Shown: positions 21,509 to 39,949 of the stretch, in pieces
How positions within the stretch are numbered: position 1 is the first letter of the stretch
How the letters are laid out: the number at the start of each line of letters is the position of its first letter
From: Lentisphaeria bacterium
Lineage (GTDB): Bacteria > Verrucomicrobiota > Lentisphaeria > Victivallales > Victivallaceae
Assembly: GCA_017457105.1 (NCBI GenBank)
Contig: JAFTIA010000098.1
Span: 1 to 46,051, forward strand
Direction of reading: 5' to 3'
DNA length: 46,051 nucleotides
Notes under the pieces: model-generated
The model's database searches: none
Told to the model about the DNA's origin: nothing
The model's input: only the letters and a program-made list of their open reading frames with translations
Position numbers and translations under genes: made by a program

Positions 21509-23671
21509 ATGAATAAAGTTCTTTTCAGAAGCAGTTTTTTTACTGCTGTTGTCATGCTTCTCTTCCTGACAGGGTGCAGAGCCATTACGCCGCCGGAACC
21601 GGCGAATCCCATGGACAGGCAATGGACGGCATCGGATTACGCCATGACCTTCGGGGATACGGACCCCTGTGAAGGATTCAACCGCTCCATGTTTGCGGTT
21701 TCGGAATTCGGCGTATTGTATGTGGTCCGCCCGGTGGGCTGGCTCTGGGGCTCCATTCTGCCGCTCCCGGTGATCAACTGTGTGGACAATGCCGCCACCA
21801 ATCTGGCATTTCCCGCCCGGGCCATCAGCTGTATCCTGCAAAACCGCTGGAAAGATTCCGGCATTGAACTTTCCCGGTTCCTCATCAATCTCACGGTGGG
21901 GATCGGCGGGCTTTTTGACCCGGCGGACAAGTGGTTCCATCTGTACCAGCGGGATGAAGATTTCGGTCAGGCGTTTGCCTCCTGGGGCTGCGGGCCGGGG
22001 TACACCTTTGTCCTGCCTCTGCTTTCCTCCACCAATATCCGTGACGGAGTGGGGTATATTTTTGACTATCTCTTCGACATCAAAACTTATATCCCCTACT
22101 ATGTCGGCACGGCGACCAGGGTCAACAAACTGGTCAAAGACTACCGCACCATGGAACAGGTCTTTATTGCCAATGCGGACCCGTATGAAACATTCAAAGA
22201 GTTTTCCGTCATCAACCGCCAGCTTGCCATGGCGGATTATCAGCTGAAACTGAAACAGAAAATGGAAGCGGAACTCTTAAAGAAGCAGGAAGAAAAAACG
22301 GAAAAAGAAAAAACGCCGCCAGCCCCGGCTGTGGTCAGAAAAGCACCGGCTGTCCAACGCCCGGCAGGGATCAGCGGCAAAATCATTACGCTGCCGGACT
22401 ATGCTCCGGAAAATCCGTGGAGCGACAGTGCCCGGGTGCTTTTCATGCAGCCGCAAACGGATCACTCCCCGTGGTGGGTTTACCTCTCGCTCTGGAACAA
22501 CACCTTCAGCAAGCAGGCGGAAGAACGGGATCTGCAGCCTGTTTTCCGGGAGGCGGACAGCATGACTTACCGCTTCTGGCGGTCACCTGATCCGGAAAAA
22601 TTCCATAAAGCCCCCCTTGCCATTCTGTTCCCCGGACTGGGCGGAGGGCATACCAATGGCTCCAGCGTGGCACTGGCGGAGGTTTTGAACCGTCAGGGAT
22701 ATGCGGTTCTGCTGGTTCCCAGCGTTTACTGCTGGCGTTTTTATCAGGCGAATTTCCGGGAACGGCTGCCCGGCTACTCCCCGGATGATGCCTTTGCCGC
22801 CCGGCAGGCGGTGCTTGATATTCTGACCGATCTGCGGGAAAAGGTTTCGGAAGGAAACCGCTTCACGCCGGACGGCATCCACCTGATCGGAAGTTCCATG
22901 GGCGCAGTCCATGCACTGCACATTGCAGCTCTGGAAACCCGGGACCGGCAGTTGAATGCCCGCAGGATCATCGCCGTCAATCCCCCGGTGGATCTGCAGT
23001 ATGCCATGGCGGAAGTGGACCGCTGTGCCCAGGCGGCCAGAGGAAAGAATCCGGAAGAAGTCACAGCGTTGTTTACAGATGGTTTTGCCAAAGCCATGCT
23101 GGCAAGTTCCGTTCAAAAACCGTGGCGGGATGCGCCGCCGGCCCCGGCTCACACCCGCTGGGATCTGCAGGAAATTCTGCAAGTCAAACAGGGGGATTAC
23201 CGCACCGGCCTTGCGCCGACACAGGCGCAAATGCTGACGGCCATTTCCTTTGGCTTTACTCTGCGGGAAGTGATGCTGGTGGCATGCCGTGACCGCCGGG
23301 CGGATGATCTGGAAAAATTTGAATACAGCTGGGGCAGCCGGACGGCTTTTTATGCCAAAGTGGATACCATGGGTTTTACCGGGTACATGAAGGATCTTCT
23401 TCTGCCGGAATACCGCAGACTTTATCATGACAATGCCTCCTTTGACGAACTCCTTTTCAAGTCCGGGTTATACAGCATTGCCGACACCCTGAAAAATGAT
23501 CGCACCATTGTGGTCATGCACAACTTGAACGATTTCCTCACCTCGGAAAAAGACCGGCAGTTTCTGGACCGGACATTGCAGGACAGGATCACCTGGTTTG
23601 ATCAGGGGAGTCACCTGGGCAATCTGTATGACGGCAAATGGCAGCAGGAACTTCTTCTGCGCTTGAAATAA
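21509..23671 (+). CDS. MlaA (VacJ)-family lipoprotein fused to an alpha/beta hydrolase
   Basis: The 720-residue protein has a lipoprotein signal (LTGC, lipidated C23). Residues about 50-235 are an MlaA domain: DPCEGFNRSMFAVSEF, FLINLTVGIGGLFDPAD, FGQAFASWGCGPGYTFVLP and NIRDGVG. MlaA is the outer-membrane lipoprotein that removes misplaced phospholipids from the outer leaflet. A charged, coiled-coil-like and proline-rich linker (245-285) leads to an alpha/beta hydrolase domain (about 365-715) with oxyanion segment FPGLGGGHTNG, nucleophile elbow GSSMG (S463) and a late histidine in DQGSHLGN. Ordinary MlaA is about 250 residues, so the hydrolase half is an addition. The frame is continuous, with no sign of frameshift. 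A role as lipase or esterase on lipids handled by MlaA is inference. The ATG at 21509 is favoured over the upstream frame, which overlaps the minus-strand gene. Confidence 0.85.
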   Translation: MNKVLFRSSFFTAVVMLLFLTGCRAITPPEPANPMDRQWTASDYAMTFGDTDPCEGFNRSMFAVSEFGVLYVVRPVGWLWGSILPLPVINCVDNAATNLAFPARAISCILQNRWKDSGIELSRFLINLTVGIGGLFDPADKWFHLYQRDEDFGQAFASWGCGPGYTFVLPLLSSTNIRDGVGYIFDYLFDIKTYIPYYVGTATRVNKLVKDYRTMEQVFIANADPYETFKEFSVINRQLAMADYQLKLKQKMEAELLKKQEEKTEKEKTPPAPAVVRKAPAVQRPAGISGKIITLPDYAPENPWSDSARVLFMQPQTDHSPWWVYLSLWNNTFSKQAEERDLQPVFREADSMTYRFWRSPDPEKFHKAPLAILFPGLGGGHTNGSSVALAEVLNRQGYAVLLVPSVYCWRFYQANFRERLPGYSPDDAFAARQAVLDILTDLREKVSEGNRFTPDGIHLIGSSMGAVHALHIAALETRDRQLNARRIIAVNPPVDLQYAMAEVDRCAQAARGKNPEEVTALFTDGFAKAMLASSVQKPWRDAPPAPAHTRWDLQEILQVKQGDYRTGLAPTQAQMLTAISFGFTLREVMLVACRDRRADDLEKFEYSWGSRTAFYAKVDTMGFTGYMKDLLLPEYRRLYHDNASFDELLFKSGLYSIADTLKNDRTIVVMHNLNDFLTSEKDRQFLDRTLQDRITWFDQGSHLGNLYDGKWQQELLLRLK

Positions 23672-23690: not shown

Positions 23691-24500
23691 ATGATGGAAT
23701 ATTTGCAGCAAATCAAACTCTGGAACGGCAATGCGCCCTTTGCAGAAGCAGACGATAACGCAAAAAAAGAAGGGTTCAAACCCGCCAATGGCGACGGCAT
23801 CCAGCGTTTGACGGATGTAACAGATCCCTCCATTACTTTTTATCCGGCTTCCGGCAGAGGCCCCAAACCGGCAGTACTGGTCTGTCCCGGGGGCGGATAC
23901 AGTATTCTGGCATGGAACCATGAAGGGATCGATATTTGTTCTCTTCTGAATTTAAATGGTTTCAGTGCCTTTCTGCTGAAATACCGCTGTCCCGGCAGAC
24001 GGGCGGCCGCCCATGCAGATGCGGCACGGGCCATGCGCCTCATCCGTGCCAATGCAGAAAAATTTGATATTCTGCCGGACAAGGTGGGGATCATCGGTTT
24101 TTCGGCGGGCGGGCACCTCTCCGCCACCCTGTGTGCCCCAGCAGATCCGGTCCCCTATCCAGAGCAGGATGCGGCGGATGAACTGCCGTACCGCCCGGAC
24201 TTTGCGGCACTGATCTATCCGGCATACCTCGTCAATGAAACCACCTGGGAACTCCATTCCGAATTCAATGTCACAGAAAACACGCCGCCCACCCTTTTGG
24301 TACAAGCAGAAAATGACGTGATCCCTGTGGAAAATTCCCTGATTTGGTACCGGGCGTTGAAAAATGCCGGGGTCCCGGCAGAGATGCACCTTTATGACAC
24401 AGGCGGTCACGGGTACGGGCTTTTGCGCACCGGGAATGCCATTTCCTGCTGGGGCGAACTGGCAGGAAAATGGTTCCGCCGTCAGGCGGATCTTCCCTGA
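23691..24500 (+). CDS. Alpha/beta hydrolase, acetyl-esterase type (COG0657-like)
   Basis: The 269-residue cytoplasmic protein resembles small acetylxylan or sugar-ester esterases. It has the oxyanion motif CPGGGYS (65-71), nucleophile elbow GFSAGGHLS (S138), an acidic residue in AENDVIPVENSL and the catalytic histidine in TGGHGYGL. There is no signal peptide. Two ATG codons in a row at 23691 and 23694 follow AAAGGA; the second has better spacing. It sits between the MlaA fusion and a glycosidase gene; the glycosidase neighbour suggests deacylation of sugar substrates, which is inference. Confidence 0.85.
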   Translation: MMEYLQQIKLWNGNAPFAEADDNAKKEGFKPANGDGIQRLTDVTDPSITFYPASGRGPKPAVLVCPGGGYSILAWNHEGIDICSLLNLNGFSAFLLKYRCPGRRAAAHADAARAMRLIRANAEKFDILPDKVGIIGFSAGGHLSATLCAPADPVPYPEQDAADELPYRPDFAALIYPAYLVNETTWELHSEFNVTENTPPTLLVQAENDVIPVENSLIWYRALKNAGVPAEMHLYDTGGHGYGLLRTGNAISCWGELAGKWFRRQADLP

Positions 24501-24531: not shown

Positions 24532-25626
24532 ATGGCTACACAACGTTGGACCTGCGAACAGGCATGGGAATGGCAAAAAAAGAATCCGTGGCTGCGGGGA
24601 TGCAATTTTCTCCCGTCGGACTGCTGCAACCGGATCGCCCTCTGGCAGGAATTGGATTTTGAGAAACACCTTGAAACATGCCGCAGAGAACTGGCACTCG
24701 TCCGTTCCATCGGCTACAATACCATCCGGGTCATCCTCGAATACATTGTTTATGCCGAAGAACACGACTCTTTTCTGGAGCGTTTTGAACGGTTTCTGCA
24801 AGTTGCAGATGAGAATGGACTTTCGGTCATGGTCTGCTTCGGCAATGACTGCACTGTGCCGAAAAATGCCAATTACCGTGCGCCCCACATCGGGCCGCAG
24901 GAATATGACTGGGGCTATCACGGCGGCCGCAAAAATTCCCCCCACGGAAGCAATCCGGATGCCATTGGATACAGCATCCTTGACGAGCCGGATCTGGCAG
25001 AGATTTTCTTCAATATGGTCCGGGAACTTGTGACCAGGTACCGGGAAGACAAGCGCATCTGCATCTGGGATCTTTTCAACGAAGCAGGGAACAACAACCG
25101 GGGCGAGATTTCGGCGCCCCATGTCCAGCGGATCTTTGATACTGCCCGTGCATGCGATCCTGTCCAGCCCCTCACCTCCTGTGTCTGGCATGACTGCAAA
25201 GACTTTTTCCGGTCGGAACAGGTGGCTCTGGAGAATTCGGATATCGTCAGTTATCACTGCTACGGCGATTATCTGACCAATGTCCGGTTTATTGCCGAAA
25301 TGAGAAAATACAACCGCCCCCTGCTCAATACCGAATGGCTGCACCGTCCGTTCCATGACACAGTGGAGGAAATGTTCCCCCTCTTTTATCTGGAAAAAGT
25401 CAGCTGTTGGAACTGGGGCTTTGTGGCAGGGCTCTCCCAGACCTACGAACCCTGGGAATCCATGTGGCGGCGCATTGACGCCGGGGAAGGTGAAGATATT
25501 GATGTCACCAAGTGGCAGCACGATCTTTTCCGCCCCAGCCTGCACCCCTATGACCCCAAAGAGATCCGGATCATCAAGGAGTTCTCCGCCCTTGCCGATG
25601 CGGATTGGGCGCGCCAGCAGGGATAA
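24532..25626 (+). CDS. GH5-like glycoside hydrolase (TIM barrel)
   Basis: The 364-residue protein is a (beta/alpha)8 glycosidase of the retaining type: general acid in IWDLFNEAGN (E184) and nucleophile in LLNTEWLHRP (E268), with SYHCYGDY and a late tryptophan-rich strand (WNWGFVAG) lining the active site. There is no signal peptide, so it should act on imported oligosaccharides. Substrate (mannan, glucan or xylan type) cannot be read from the sequence. It starts 31 bases after the esterase behind AAAGGA, and a strong terminator follows. The genes appear co-transcribed. Confidence 0.85.
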   Translation: MATQRWTCEQAWEWQKKNPWLRGCNFLPSDCCNRIALWQELDFEKHLETCRRELALVRSIGYNTIRVILEYIVYAEEHDSFLERFERFLQVADENGLSVMVCFGNDCTVPKNANYRAPHIGPQEYDWGYHGGRKNSPHGSNPDAIGYSILDEPDLAEIFFNMVRELVTRYREDKRICIWDLFNEAGNNNRGEISAPHVQRIFDTARACDPVQPLTSCVWHDCKDFFRSEQVALENSDIVSYHCYGDYLTNVRFIAEMRKYNRPLLNTEWLHRPFHDTVEEMFPLFYLEKVSCWNWGFVAGLSQTYEPWESMWRRIDAGEGEDIDVTKWQHDLFRPSLHPYDPKEIRIIKEFSALADADWARQQG

Positions 25627-36649: not shown

Positions 36650-37019
36650 CGGCATTGGTATCGATCTGGTGGAGATCCAGCGGATCCGCCAGATGATCAA
36701 ACGGTTCGGACAGAATTTTCTGAACAGAGTCTATACGGAAGCGGAACGGCGGGAAGCCGGTTACCGGCAGGATCCTGCGGCGTATTATGCGGGCCGCTGG
36801 GCGGCAAAAGAGGCTCTCGCCAAGGCTTTGGGCTGCGGGATCGGGTCCCTCTGTGCTTTTACGGACATCGAAACCACCAATTCCCCCTCCGGGAAGCCGG
36901 TGATGACGCTTTCCGGCGAAGCTGCCAAAACCATGAGCAAACAGGGTGGAAAAAAGATTTTCGTCTCCGTTTCCCACGAAGCAAGTTACGCTATTTGCAA
37001 CGTGATTATTGAGCGTTGA
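36642..37019 (+). CDS. acpS: Holo-[acyl-carrier-protein] synthase
   Basis: AcpS attaches phosphopantetheine from CoA to acyl carrier protein. The 125-residue protein has GIGIDLVEIQRI (magnesium ligand D8), FLNRVYTEAER and GRWAAKEALAKALG (E57), and ends with the VSVSHEASYAICNV segment. The ATG at 36642 has AAAGGAGAAAGC just upstream and overlaps the preceding stop. Its 3' end overlaps the convergent lnt by 14 bases. With coaD nearby, the region supplies and uses CoA. Confidence 0.95.
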   Translation: MINGIGIDLVEIQRIRQMIKRFGQNFLNRVYTEAERREAGYRQDPAAYYAGRWAAKEALAKALGCGIGSLCAFTDIETTNSPSGKPVMTLSGEAAKTMSKQGGKKIFVSVSHEASYAICNVIIER

Positions 37020-38697
37020 CGTTTTCTTCCATGCGACCAAGCAGAGCCCGCCGGAACGCCAAAAACCCCGATCCGGCAACGGCAAAACCTGCCAGCACCA
37101 GACAACCGCACAAAGCGGTGAACCATTCCCCGTAACGGGTGTAAAAGGTCATGGCAGGTTCTGCCGGGACGGGCACTTCGATCACGCCGATCCCCCTGCC
37201 CCGGCGCAGTTCCGGGGCGCCGGTTCCGGGGACCGTCAGGATTTGAGAAATCACCCCGTCCGGACTGATGAGCAAAGTCCCGCCGTTATTGCCGCACCGG
37301 ACGGAATAGCGGCCGTTTTCCACAGACCGGGCAACGGCATTGGCAAGATGCTGTTCCGGTTCGGAACTGGTGGGATACCAGGCATCATTGGAAATCACCA
37401 GAAGCATATTTGCCCCGCGCCGCACACTTTCCCGGGCGACATACGGGAAGACACTTTCAAAACAAATCGCCACCCCGGCACGGATTCCCGGCTTTAATGT
37501 TACAGGCGAAAAATCTGTCCCGGCAAGAAGATCCCGGTTCATATCGATGGCACGCACCAGAGCCCCGGGCAGAATGTTCCGGAAGGGAATGTATTCCCCG
37601 AAAGGGACCCGGTGGATCTTGTCATACCGTGCCGCGATGCCGCCGGGGGTAAGATACAATGCACTGTTGGTGATCCGGTAATTCCCGGAAAAAGGCGGGG
37701 ACTCGCGGAACTCGATCGTCCCGAACAGCACAGGGATACCGGAAGACAAAATGATTTTCTGCAATTCACTGCGGTAGAGAGCTGAAACCGGGTGATTCCC
37801 CCGGAAGGCATAAGGCACTGCCGTTTCCGGCCAGACGATCACATCCGGAGCGGGCTTGATCTTCACCGCCTCCCGGGTCATATCCAAATAGGTCTTCAAA
37901 GCCTCAAAAGCCTGATCGTGATCCGCATTGCGCCTTTGGGAAATATCGCCCTGAACAGCGGCGATCCGGTATTTTTCCATCTTTTCCGGAACCGGATTCT
38001 GCGCCCGGTACACCGAAACCAGCGAGGGCAGCAGTACCGCAGGAAGCACGGCACCGAACCACAGGGGATACTGTTTCTTATCTTTTTTCCGGAAAACCCA
38101 CGCCAGAGCCAGAGCGCAGGAGAGATTGGCTATCAGAAAACCGATCCCGGTCACTCCGGTCACCGATGCCGGGGCAAGCAGCCGGGGATACCGCCACACC
38201 GCCGTTGCCAGATTATTCCACGGCAGCATGGTAGAGCGGCTGAACTCCAGCACGATCCAGAGTGCCGCCAGCACCGCCGCAGTCAAAATGCGCCGTCCGG
38301 CCCCCGGTAAAAAATCCTCCATGGCAGCTTCGCCATCCAGCCGGACTTTTACCGGATAAAGCAAATATTTCAAAAAGAAAACAGCCGAAACGGCCCACAC
38401 TGCGGGCCACAGGGCAAGCACCGGAGCGATCCCGAAAGGCACGGCTGGATGGATCTCCCGCAAAAACCAGAACCCGGGAAACGCCCAGCCAAGGCCGAAA
38501 AGAAACCCTGCAAGCAAACACTCATACCACTTCAGATACCGCAAACAAAGCAGCAGCCCTGCCAGCGGAAAAATCACAAGCCAGCTCCAGTTGCACGGCG
38601 GCAGAGCCAGAAAAAAAAGAACTCCGCATAAAAAAGCCGCCCCCAGTCTGGAGGGCAGAAAGTACCATGCACACAATGTATTGTCCGATACAGTCAT
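37006..38697 (-). CDS. lnt: Apolipoprotein N-acyltransferase
   Basis: Lnt adds the third acyl chain to the N-terminal cysteine of lipoproteins at the inner membrane. The 563-residue protein has about seven N-terminal hydrophobic helices and a nitrilase-like domain with E291 (VWPETAVPY), K360 (YDKIHRVPFGEY) and C412 (VAICFESVFP), the complete catalytic triad, then a last helix near the C terminus. AGGAG precedes the ATG at 38697. It implies mature lipoproteins such as the MlaA fusion in this genome. Confidence 0.93.
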   Translation of the reverse strand: MTVSDNTLCAWYFLPSRLGAAFLCGVLFFLALPPCNWSWLVIFPLAGLLLCLRYLKWYECLLAGFLFGLGWAFPGFWFLREIHPAVPFGIAPVLALWPAVWAVSAVFFLKYLLYPVKVRLDGEAAMEDFLPGAGRRILTAAVLAALWIVLEFSRSTMLPWNNLATAVWRYPRLLAPASVTGVTGIGFLIANLSCALALAWVFRKKDKKQYPLWFGAVLPAVLLPSLVSVYRAQNPVPEKMEKYRIAAVQGDISQRRNADHDQAFEALKTYLDMTREAVKIKPAPDVIVWPETAVPYAFRGNHPVSALYRSELQKIILSSGIPVLFGTIEFRESPPFSGNYRITNSALYLTPGGIAARYDKIHRVPFGEYIPFRNILPGALVRAIDMNRDLLAGTDFSPVTLKPGIRAGVAICFESVFPYVARESVRRGANMLLVISNDAWYPTSSEPEQHLANAVARSVENGRYSVRCGNNGGTLLISPDGVISQILTVPGTGAPELRRGRGIGVIEVPVPAEPAMTFYTRYGEWFTALCGCLVLAGFAVAGSGFLAFRRALLGRMEENVNAQ

Positions 38698-38783
38698 ACC
38701 GATTTCTTCTCCTGTATTTTTACTGAATGTACCATAAAACGCCGGAAAAGTCAAACTGCATTTTATTTTTTTCAACGGAATCA

Positions 38784-38812
38784 TTGCTTTTTGATACGGG
38801 ATACAGTATATT
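38784..38812 (+). promoter_or_regulatory. Promoter of the DUF362 gene
   Basis: TTGCTT (38784-38789) and TATATT (38807-38812) with exactly 17-base spacing, about 34 bases before the ATG. The box pair closely matches that of the pseudopilin operon (TTGCTT, 17, TATACT). Confidence 0.6.
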
Positions 38813-38845
38813 ATCCGGAAACAAAGACAATGAAGGGGAATGCCA

Positions 38846-39949
38846 ATGAAAAGCAAAGTTTATTTTACCGATTTCCGCACAGAATTCCACGGAGCGGGCA
38901 GATTGCCAAAACTCCATCGGCTGATGAAACTTGCCGGATTTGAAAACATTGATTTTCAGGATAAATTCGTTGCCATCAAAATGCACTTCGGCGAACTGGG
39001 CAATCTGGCGTACCTGCGCCCGCAATACGCCCGGGTAATCGCCGATTATGTCCGGGAACTGGGGGGCAAACCCTTTTTGACGGACTGCAACACCCTGTAT
39101 GCAGGTTCCCGCAAAAATGCACTGGAACATCTGGCAACAGCCGCCGCCAACGGCTTCAATGAAATTTCCGCAGGCTGCCCCATCCTGATCGGAGACGGCC
39201 TGAAAGGTAATGATGAAGTCGCAGTTCCGTTACCCAACGCCGTTCATTGCCCTGCCCCCAAAATCGGCAGAACGGTGATGGATGCAGATATTTTTATCAG
39301 CCTCACCCATTTCAAAGGGCATGAAGCCATGGGGATCGGCGGAGCGGTCAAAAATACCGGTATGGGCTGCGGTTCACGGGCGGGAAAAATGGAAATGCAC
39401 AGCGACGGCAAACCGGAGCTGAATACCGATGACTGTATCGGCTGCGGCATCTGTCAAAAACACTGCGCTCATAATGCCCTGACCTTGAACGGCCGCAAAA
39501 TGACCATTGACCACGCAAAATGTGCCGGATGCGGCAGCTGTATTGCCGTCTGCCCCAAAGATGCGCTCCAGCCAAACTGGGGACAGAGTGCCAAATTGCT
39601 GAACGAAAAAACATCGGAATATGCGGCGGCTGTGTTGAACGGCAGACCGCATTTCCATGTAAGTCTTTTGTGCGACATTGCCCCGAACTGCGATTGTCAC
39701 GGGGAAAACGATGCGGCGATCCTGCCGGATATCGGGATGCTGGCGGGCTTTGACCCGGTGGCGTTGGACAAGGCGGCATGTGATCTCTGCAACAGCATCC
39801 CCCGGTTGCCCCGCACCTGGATGGATGATTGCCAAAAGAGCAATGATATTTTTGAAGATGCCCACCCCGGAACCTGTTGGCATGCCGGGTTGGAACACGC
39901 CGAAAAACTGGGTATCGGCTCACAGGATTACGAACTGATCCGGATGTAA
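38846..39949 (+). CDS. DUF362 domain 4Fe-4S protein
   Basis: The 367-residue protein joins an N-terminal and C-terminal DUF362 domain (LTHFKGHEAMGIGGAVKNTGMG) to an inserted ferredoxin module with two CX2CX2CX3C motifs (C197, C200, C203, C207 and C226, C229, C232, C236), ligands for two [4Fe-4S] clusters. No signal peptide is seen. Electron transfer is likely, but the partner is unknown. The ATG at 38846 is chosen over 38840 because the AAGGGG site is 7 bases away. A hairpin terminator follows. Confidence 0.88.
   Translation: MKSKVYFTDFRTEFHGAGRLPKLHRLMKLAGFENIDFQDKFVAIKMHFGELGNLAYLRPQYARVIADYVRELGGKPFLTDCNTLYAGSRKNALEHLATAAANGFNEISAGCPILIGDGLKGNDEVAVPLPNAVHCPAPKIGRTVMDADIFISLTHFKGHEAMGIGGAVKNTGMGCGSRAGKMEMHSDGKPELNTDDCIGCGICQKHCAHNALTLNGRKMTIDHAKCAGCGSCIAVCPKDALQPNWGQSAKLLNEKTSEYAAAVLNGRPHFHVSLLCDIAPNCDCHGENDAAILPDIGMLAGFDPVALDKAACDLCNSIPRLPRTWMDDCQKSNDIFEDAHPGTCWHAGLEHAEKLGIGSQDYELIRM

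Follow-up and report, generated by a model that had tools for sequence, protein, structure and literature searches.

A single open frame in a Lentisphaeria genome joins an MlaA-type lipoprotein to an alpha/beta hydrolase. The locus raises the question of whether the two parts form one genuine protein and what such a protein would do with lipids. The window analyzed is a stretch of 46,051 nucleotides that makes up the entire contig C92 of its source genome, an 86.7% complete assembly of 2.68 Mb divided among 114 contigs. The parts of the gene are listed below.

21509..23671, forward strand: fused gene for an MlaA(MlaZ)-type lipoprotein and an MlaY-type alpha/beta hydrolase, 720 amino acids
21509..21577, forward strand: lipoprotein signal peptide with lipobox L20-T-G-C23 (LTGC, Cys23), read from the sequence; presumed outer-membrane location
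21659..22222, forward strand: MlaA domain, residues 51-238 (Pfam PF04333, E=1.1e-42; Foldseek 5nur, TMt 0.81)
22223..22363, forward strand: linker, charged helical and proline-rich, residues 239-285, from the sequence; lower pLDDT
22364..23668, forward strand: MlaY-type alpha/beta hydrolase domain, residues 286-720 (AlphaFold2 model; MlaY homology)
22895..22897, forward strand: predicted catalytic Ser463 in a GSSMG nucleophile elbow (conservation; directly after a strand in the model)
23051..23422, forward strand: helical insertion, residues 515-638, a probable active-site lid (AlphaFold2 model)
23531..23533, forward strand: predicted catalytic Asp675 (conservation; aligned with MlaY Asp388)
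23612..23614, forward strand: predicted catalytic His702 (conservation; aligned with MlaY His415)

The fusion frame remains open upstream to 21257. The start at 21509 is favored over this extension because the lipoprotein signal begins there. Pfam Abhydrolase_6 scores 24.6 bits against the whole protein, slightly below its cut-off of 26.3, and 26.7 bits against the hydrolase domain alone, slightly above it. The only solved structures related to the fusion by sequence are those of MlaA (5nuo, 5nuq, and 8i8r), and no NCBIfam model matches the fusion or the hydrolase.

The AlphaFold2 model of residues 23-720, made with 44 sequences, has a pLDDT of 90.7 and a pTM of 0.91, with the pLDDT falling to 66-77 at mature residues 241-260 in the linker. 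Modeled alone, the hydrolase domain reaches a pLDDT of 92.9 and a pTM of 0.94. Because the pTM of 0.91 extends across both domains, the model suggests that they hold a defined placement relative to each other. In Foldseek searches, the MlaA half matches 5nur (E 3.7e-7), and the hydrolase half matches alpha/beta hydrolases, including 7qjm and the phospholipase PlaF (6i8w). The earlier note had read a lipoprotein signal, an MlaA domain, a linker, and a GSSMG hydrolase in one frame, and this arrangement is borne out by the lipobox, the Pfam match, and the predicted folds of both halves.

Two neighboring genes could appear joined merely through a sequencing or frame error, and several relatives do have adjacent separate genes. 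The chance of such an error here is negligible. A whole-protein search of 60 related genomes finds the full-length fusion, uninterrupted by stops, in about 30, among them single-contig genomes and Victivallis vadensis DSM 14823, at identities from 27% to 56%. This recurrence refutes the error reading, and the fusion is therefore not due to chance either. It also answers the earlier suggestion that the two-domain architecture be sought in relatives. In about 10 other related genomes, the MlaA part and the hydrolase part are two adjacent frames. A clear lipobox is missing in several homologues of the fusion, so lipid anchoring is not universal.

The hydrolase half has a predicted catalytic triad of Ser463, Asp675, and His702. 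In the model, each of these residues lies just after a strand, in the canonical alpha/beta hydrolase order. The long helices of the 515-638 insertion lie between the Ser strand and the Asp strand, where they probably act as a lid. Ser463 is kept in 30/30 aligned fused proteins, and Asp675 and His702 in 29/29 that are long enough to reach them. Across a wider set of 90 homologues, Ser463 is a serine in all 90, Asp675 is an aspartate in 87 of the 88 with a residue there (glutamate in the other), and His702 is a histidine in 88 of 88. The earlier note had asked whether Ser463 forms a triad with a nearby Asp and His, and the almost invariant residues at canonical positions of the AlphaFold2 model agree with this.

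A known counterpart of the fusion is MlaYZ of Pseudomonas aeruginosa (PA3238/PA3239), described by Guest, Lee, Wang and Silhavy 2023 (PNAS 120:e2302546120) and taken here from the papers that cite it. According to these (PMC11131202, PMC12569750, PMC11977310), the MlaA homologue MlaZ (PA3239) hands glycerophospholipid that is out of place to the periplasmic lipase MlaY (PA3238), where it is destroyed. The active site of MlaY lies in an alpha/beta hydrolase domain and consists of Ser187, Asp388, and His415, and MlaYZ operates in addition to a full MlaABCDEF pathway (PMC11977310). When plasmid records are searched by tblastn with the fusion as query, a P. aeruginosa record turns up in which a hydrolase gene is followed by a VacJ-family gene. 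This hydrolase has S, D, and H exactly at positions 187, 388, and 415 and is taken as MlaY because these match the published residues. The fusion hydrolase is homologous to it (BLASTP E=4e-31, 27% identity over 355 residues; hhalign E=5e-43), and MlaY Ser187, Asp388, and His415 align onto Ser463, Asp675, and His702 of the fusion.

PMC11977310 describes MlaY as homologous to PldA. The fusion's hydrolase domain has an alpha/beta hydrolase fold and is not a barrel phospholipase of the PF02253 type (PldA/OMPLA). On sequence and fold data, its family belongs with the alpha/beta hydrolases and not with PldA, contrary to that description. The earlier note had used PldA as its comparison; MlaY fits instead, being homologous to the fusion's hydrolase. 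The same note knew of no described example. Literature searches, in which five relevant papers name MlaY or MlaZ, return no described MlaA-hydrolase fusion, and to that extent the statement stands, but it needs correcting because the two-protein form, MlaZ/MlaY, is already described. Where MlaYZ has two tandem genes, the window has one fused gene; tandem genes are seen in other families and also in a second phylum, and the fusion is thus a variant form of the MlaYZ pair.

The gene is likely a single-chain MlaZ-MlaY that extracts misplaced outer-leaflet phospholipids and cleaves them at the periplasmic face, its location, substrate, activity, and hand-over all being deduced. The MlaA half would form an outer-membrane lipoprotein ring channel that takes in glycerophospholipids misplaced in the outer leaflet. 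The C-terminal MlaY-type serine hydrolase would face the periplasm at the exit of the channel. Lipid would be handed directly from the MlaA ring to the hydrolase and deacylated through the Ser463-Asp675-His702 triad. Split hydrolases in relatives have their own signal peptide at the N-terminus, which places the enzyme outside the cytoplasm. Together with the lipobox of the fusion, these signal peptides are compatible with a periplasmic-side position for the hydrolase. An extract-and-degrade machine had been proposed from the locus alone, and the near-invariant triad, the fold prediction, and the wide occurrence of the fusion in close relatives support it in outline. Genetic work in P. aeruginosa assigns this same function to MlaZ and MlaY as separate proteins (PMC11131202, PMC12569750, PMC11977310).

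The enzyme could instead be an acyltransferase that moves an acyl chain from lipids in the MlaA ring to another acceptor, or an esterase acting on lysolipids or LPS acyl chains. Its Foldseek neighbors beside PlaF include acetyltransferases, thioesterases, and esterases, and a hydrolase is not separable from a transferase by sequence. This reading is nevertheless unlikely given the homology and shared triad with MlaY, a reported phospholipase, and given that these genomes have no PldA to carry out hydrolysis otherwise: PldA (PF02253) is found in 0/61 genomes of the close set, which includes the source genome.

The partners of MlaA across the phylum bear on the role of the single-chain MlaZ-MlaY. 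Of 338 genomes covered in the phylum, 132 have MlaA, 39 have MlaC, and 92 have the hydrolase; the last count leaves out very weak matches in G141, G211, and G223, which are treated as unrelated. The hydrolase is never found without MlaA in the 338 genomes. The 132 MlaA genomes divide into 91 with the hydrolase only, 37 with MlaC only, 1 with both, and 3 with neither; because the partner changes only twice, they are not independent cases, and a Fisher p-value is not to be taken at face value. Many independent swaps from MlaC to the hydrolase were considered and rejected, as the MlaA tree requires only two partner changes.

The genome with both partners, G205, encodes two MlaAs. One adjoins MlaC and a short MlaD, and the other is fused to the hydrolase. 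This pair of loci (L151, L152) is a natural parallel to P. aeruginosa, which also has two MlaA-family proteins. In the genomes with neither partner, MlaA lies beside an MMPL transporter (G293), beside a glycosyltransferase (G323), or at a contig edge (G290); the last of these MlaAs nests in the hydrolase group. In G293 (L153), the MlaA gene is followed by the gene of the MMPL-family transporter, and MlaC and the hydrolase are not detected in the genome. An MMPL-family transporter is possibly a third kind of MlaA partner.

MlaC (PF05494) is not found in the source genome, where single absences are weak evidence because the genome is 87% complete; control genomes gave matches. Within the close set, MlaC is absent in 60/61 genomes, the source genome included. 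In the sole genome that has it, MlaC adjoins MlaA and there is no hydrolase. A short MlaD (at most 256 amino acids) occurs in 28/39 MlaC genomes. The MCE frames of close-set genomes with the MlaA-hydrolase pair are all at least 272 amino acids long, and no short MlaD was found among them. In its carriers, the joined form seems to stand in for MlaC, the shuttle that normally returns stray lipids inward. With the MlaC shuttle, PldA, and short MlaD all undetected in these bacteria, their misplaced outer-leaflet phospholipids are probably disposed of mainly by the extract-and-destroy route. A broader claim, given somewhat less than an even chance, is that the tethered lipase replaced both MlaC and PldA and is the sole route for maintaining asymmetry, with flow through MlaA fixed from the outer leaflet to the periplasm.

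The hydrolase could also stand in for MlaC as a tethered lipid carrier, passing lipid, whole or cleaved, from the ring to a long MlaD (MCE) needle and on to the inner membrane. MlaE/long-MlaD operons are retained in 58/61 close-set genomes, nearly all without MlaC, which favors this reading. Long MlaD systems occur in MlaC genomes too, however, and their presence is hence not specific. Carrying also needs no strictly conserved triad, and MlaY is reported as a lipase. A carrier is therefore very improbable, and extraction followed by cleavage is the preferred reading.

The source genome itself has two MlaE-MlaD operons, with MlaD proteins of 321 and 336 amino acids, and one of the operons has an adjacent ABC ATPase. 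In the MlaE-MlaD operon on contig C53 (L149:1771-4943), no adjacent ATPase is seen. Two weak matches below the Pfam cut-offs flank it, one to an ABC_trans_aux lipoprotein upstream and a LolA-like one downstream. This operon possibly encodes a second lipid transporter, served by a periplasmic carrier of its own.

The fusion is also present in named genomes. In a scan of these, a single-protein query gave no match, and a narrower alignment as query gave 47 loci. The hydrolase is paired with MlaA in all 47, fused in 44 and with MlaA as the preceding frame in 3. Carriers include the cultured Victivallis vadensis DSM 14823, members of the Akkermansiaceae, a bin labeled Omnitrophota, and a bin labeled Deltaproteobacteria. 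Contamination is unlikely for the phylum of the Omnitrophota-labeled genome because 6 of the 14 species covered there carry the pair, fused or split. In this second phylum, the MlaA-hydrolase pair is fused or encoded by successive genes in 6/6 carriers. The one Deltaproteobacteria-labeled bin has the fusion and MlaC together. The carriers are gut and environmental bacteria, and the fusion spans at least two phyla. Similar MlaY-like and MlaZ-like pairs are found in Skermanella and Fusobacterium. On Skermanella plasmids (L172, L177), the two genes are flanked by an RND transporter permease gene on one side and a TamB-domain gene on the other, an arrangement that suggests a lipid-transport cluster in Alphaproteobacteria.

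No widely shared gene neighbors of the fusion were found. In the window, a BD-FAE/Abhydrolase_3 esterase gene (23691-24500, forward strand) starts 19 bases past the stop of the fusion, and a GH5-type glycosidase gene (24532-25626, forward strand) lies downstream of it. These two are probably a polysaccharide-degradation pair and could share a transcript with the fusion. They were rejected as a conserved partner, as the neighbors are not conserved. An apolipoprotein N-acyltransferase (Lnt) is encoded at 37006-38856 on the reverse strand, which fits triacylated outer-membrane lipoproteins in the source genome.

The single-chain form, with its lipase fixed at the ring exit, is ready-made for structural and in vitro work, and Victivallis vadensis DSM 14823 offers a cultured carrier. 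The fusion bears on the direction of Mla lipid transport and on the hand-over from MlaZ to MlaY; it implies that lipid moves inward from the outer leaflet. The fusion further suggests a way in which MlaA can persist without MlaC in a large group of diderms. Scoring MlaA alone as evidence that the Mla return pathway is present is misleading in these phyla.

Several known systems resemble the fusion in part. It shares the MlaA domain and fold with MlaABCDEF of E. coli, and MlaE, MlaD, and the ABC ATPase of one operon are encoded elsewhere in the genome. It differs in that no MlaC and no short MlaD were found and in that a hydrolase is attached. PldA (OMPLA), a phospholipase with a beta-barrel fold, works inside the membrane itself. 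Its presumed job, the hydrolytic removal of outer-leaflet phospholipid, is identical, but its fold is unrelated and it is not found in the 61 genomes. PlaF (6i8w) of P. aeruginosa is an alpha/beta hydrolase phospholipase A and a Foldseek neighbor; its identity is just 12-13%, and its chain has no MlaA part.

MlaYZ likewise combines an MlaA-family outer-membrane protein with an alpha/beta hydrolase bearing a Ser/Asp/His triad, and in both systems the two are paired and the hydrolases are homologous. P. aeruginosa has the full MlaABCDEF system as well, whereas MlaC was not found here. On the MlaA tree, the MlaA halves of the two systems occupy separate regions. MlaYZ is made up of two proteins with the hydrolase gene first, whereas the present gene encodes one polypeptide in the order MlaA-hydrolase. 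What is new is the fusion itself, its reversed gene order relative to P. aeruginosa, its occurrence in at least two phyla, and its exclusion of MlaC, whose place an MlaY-type enzyme holds.
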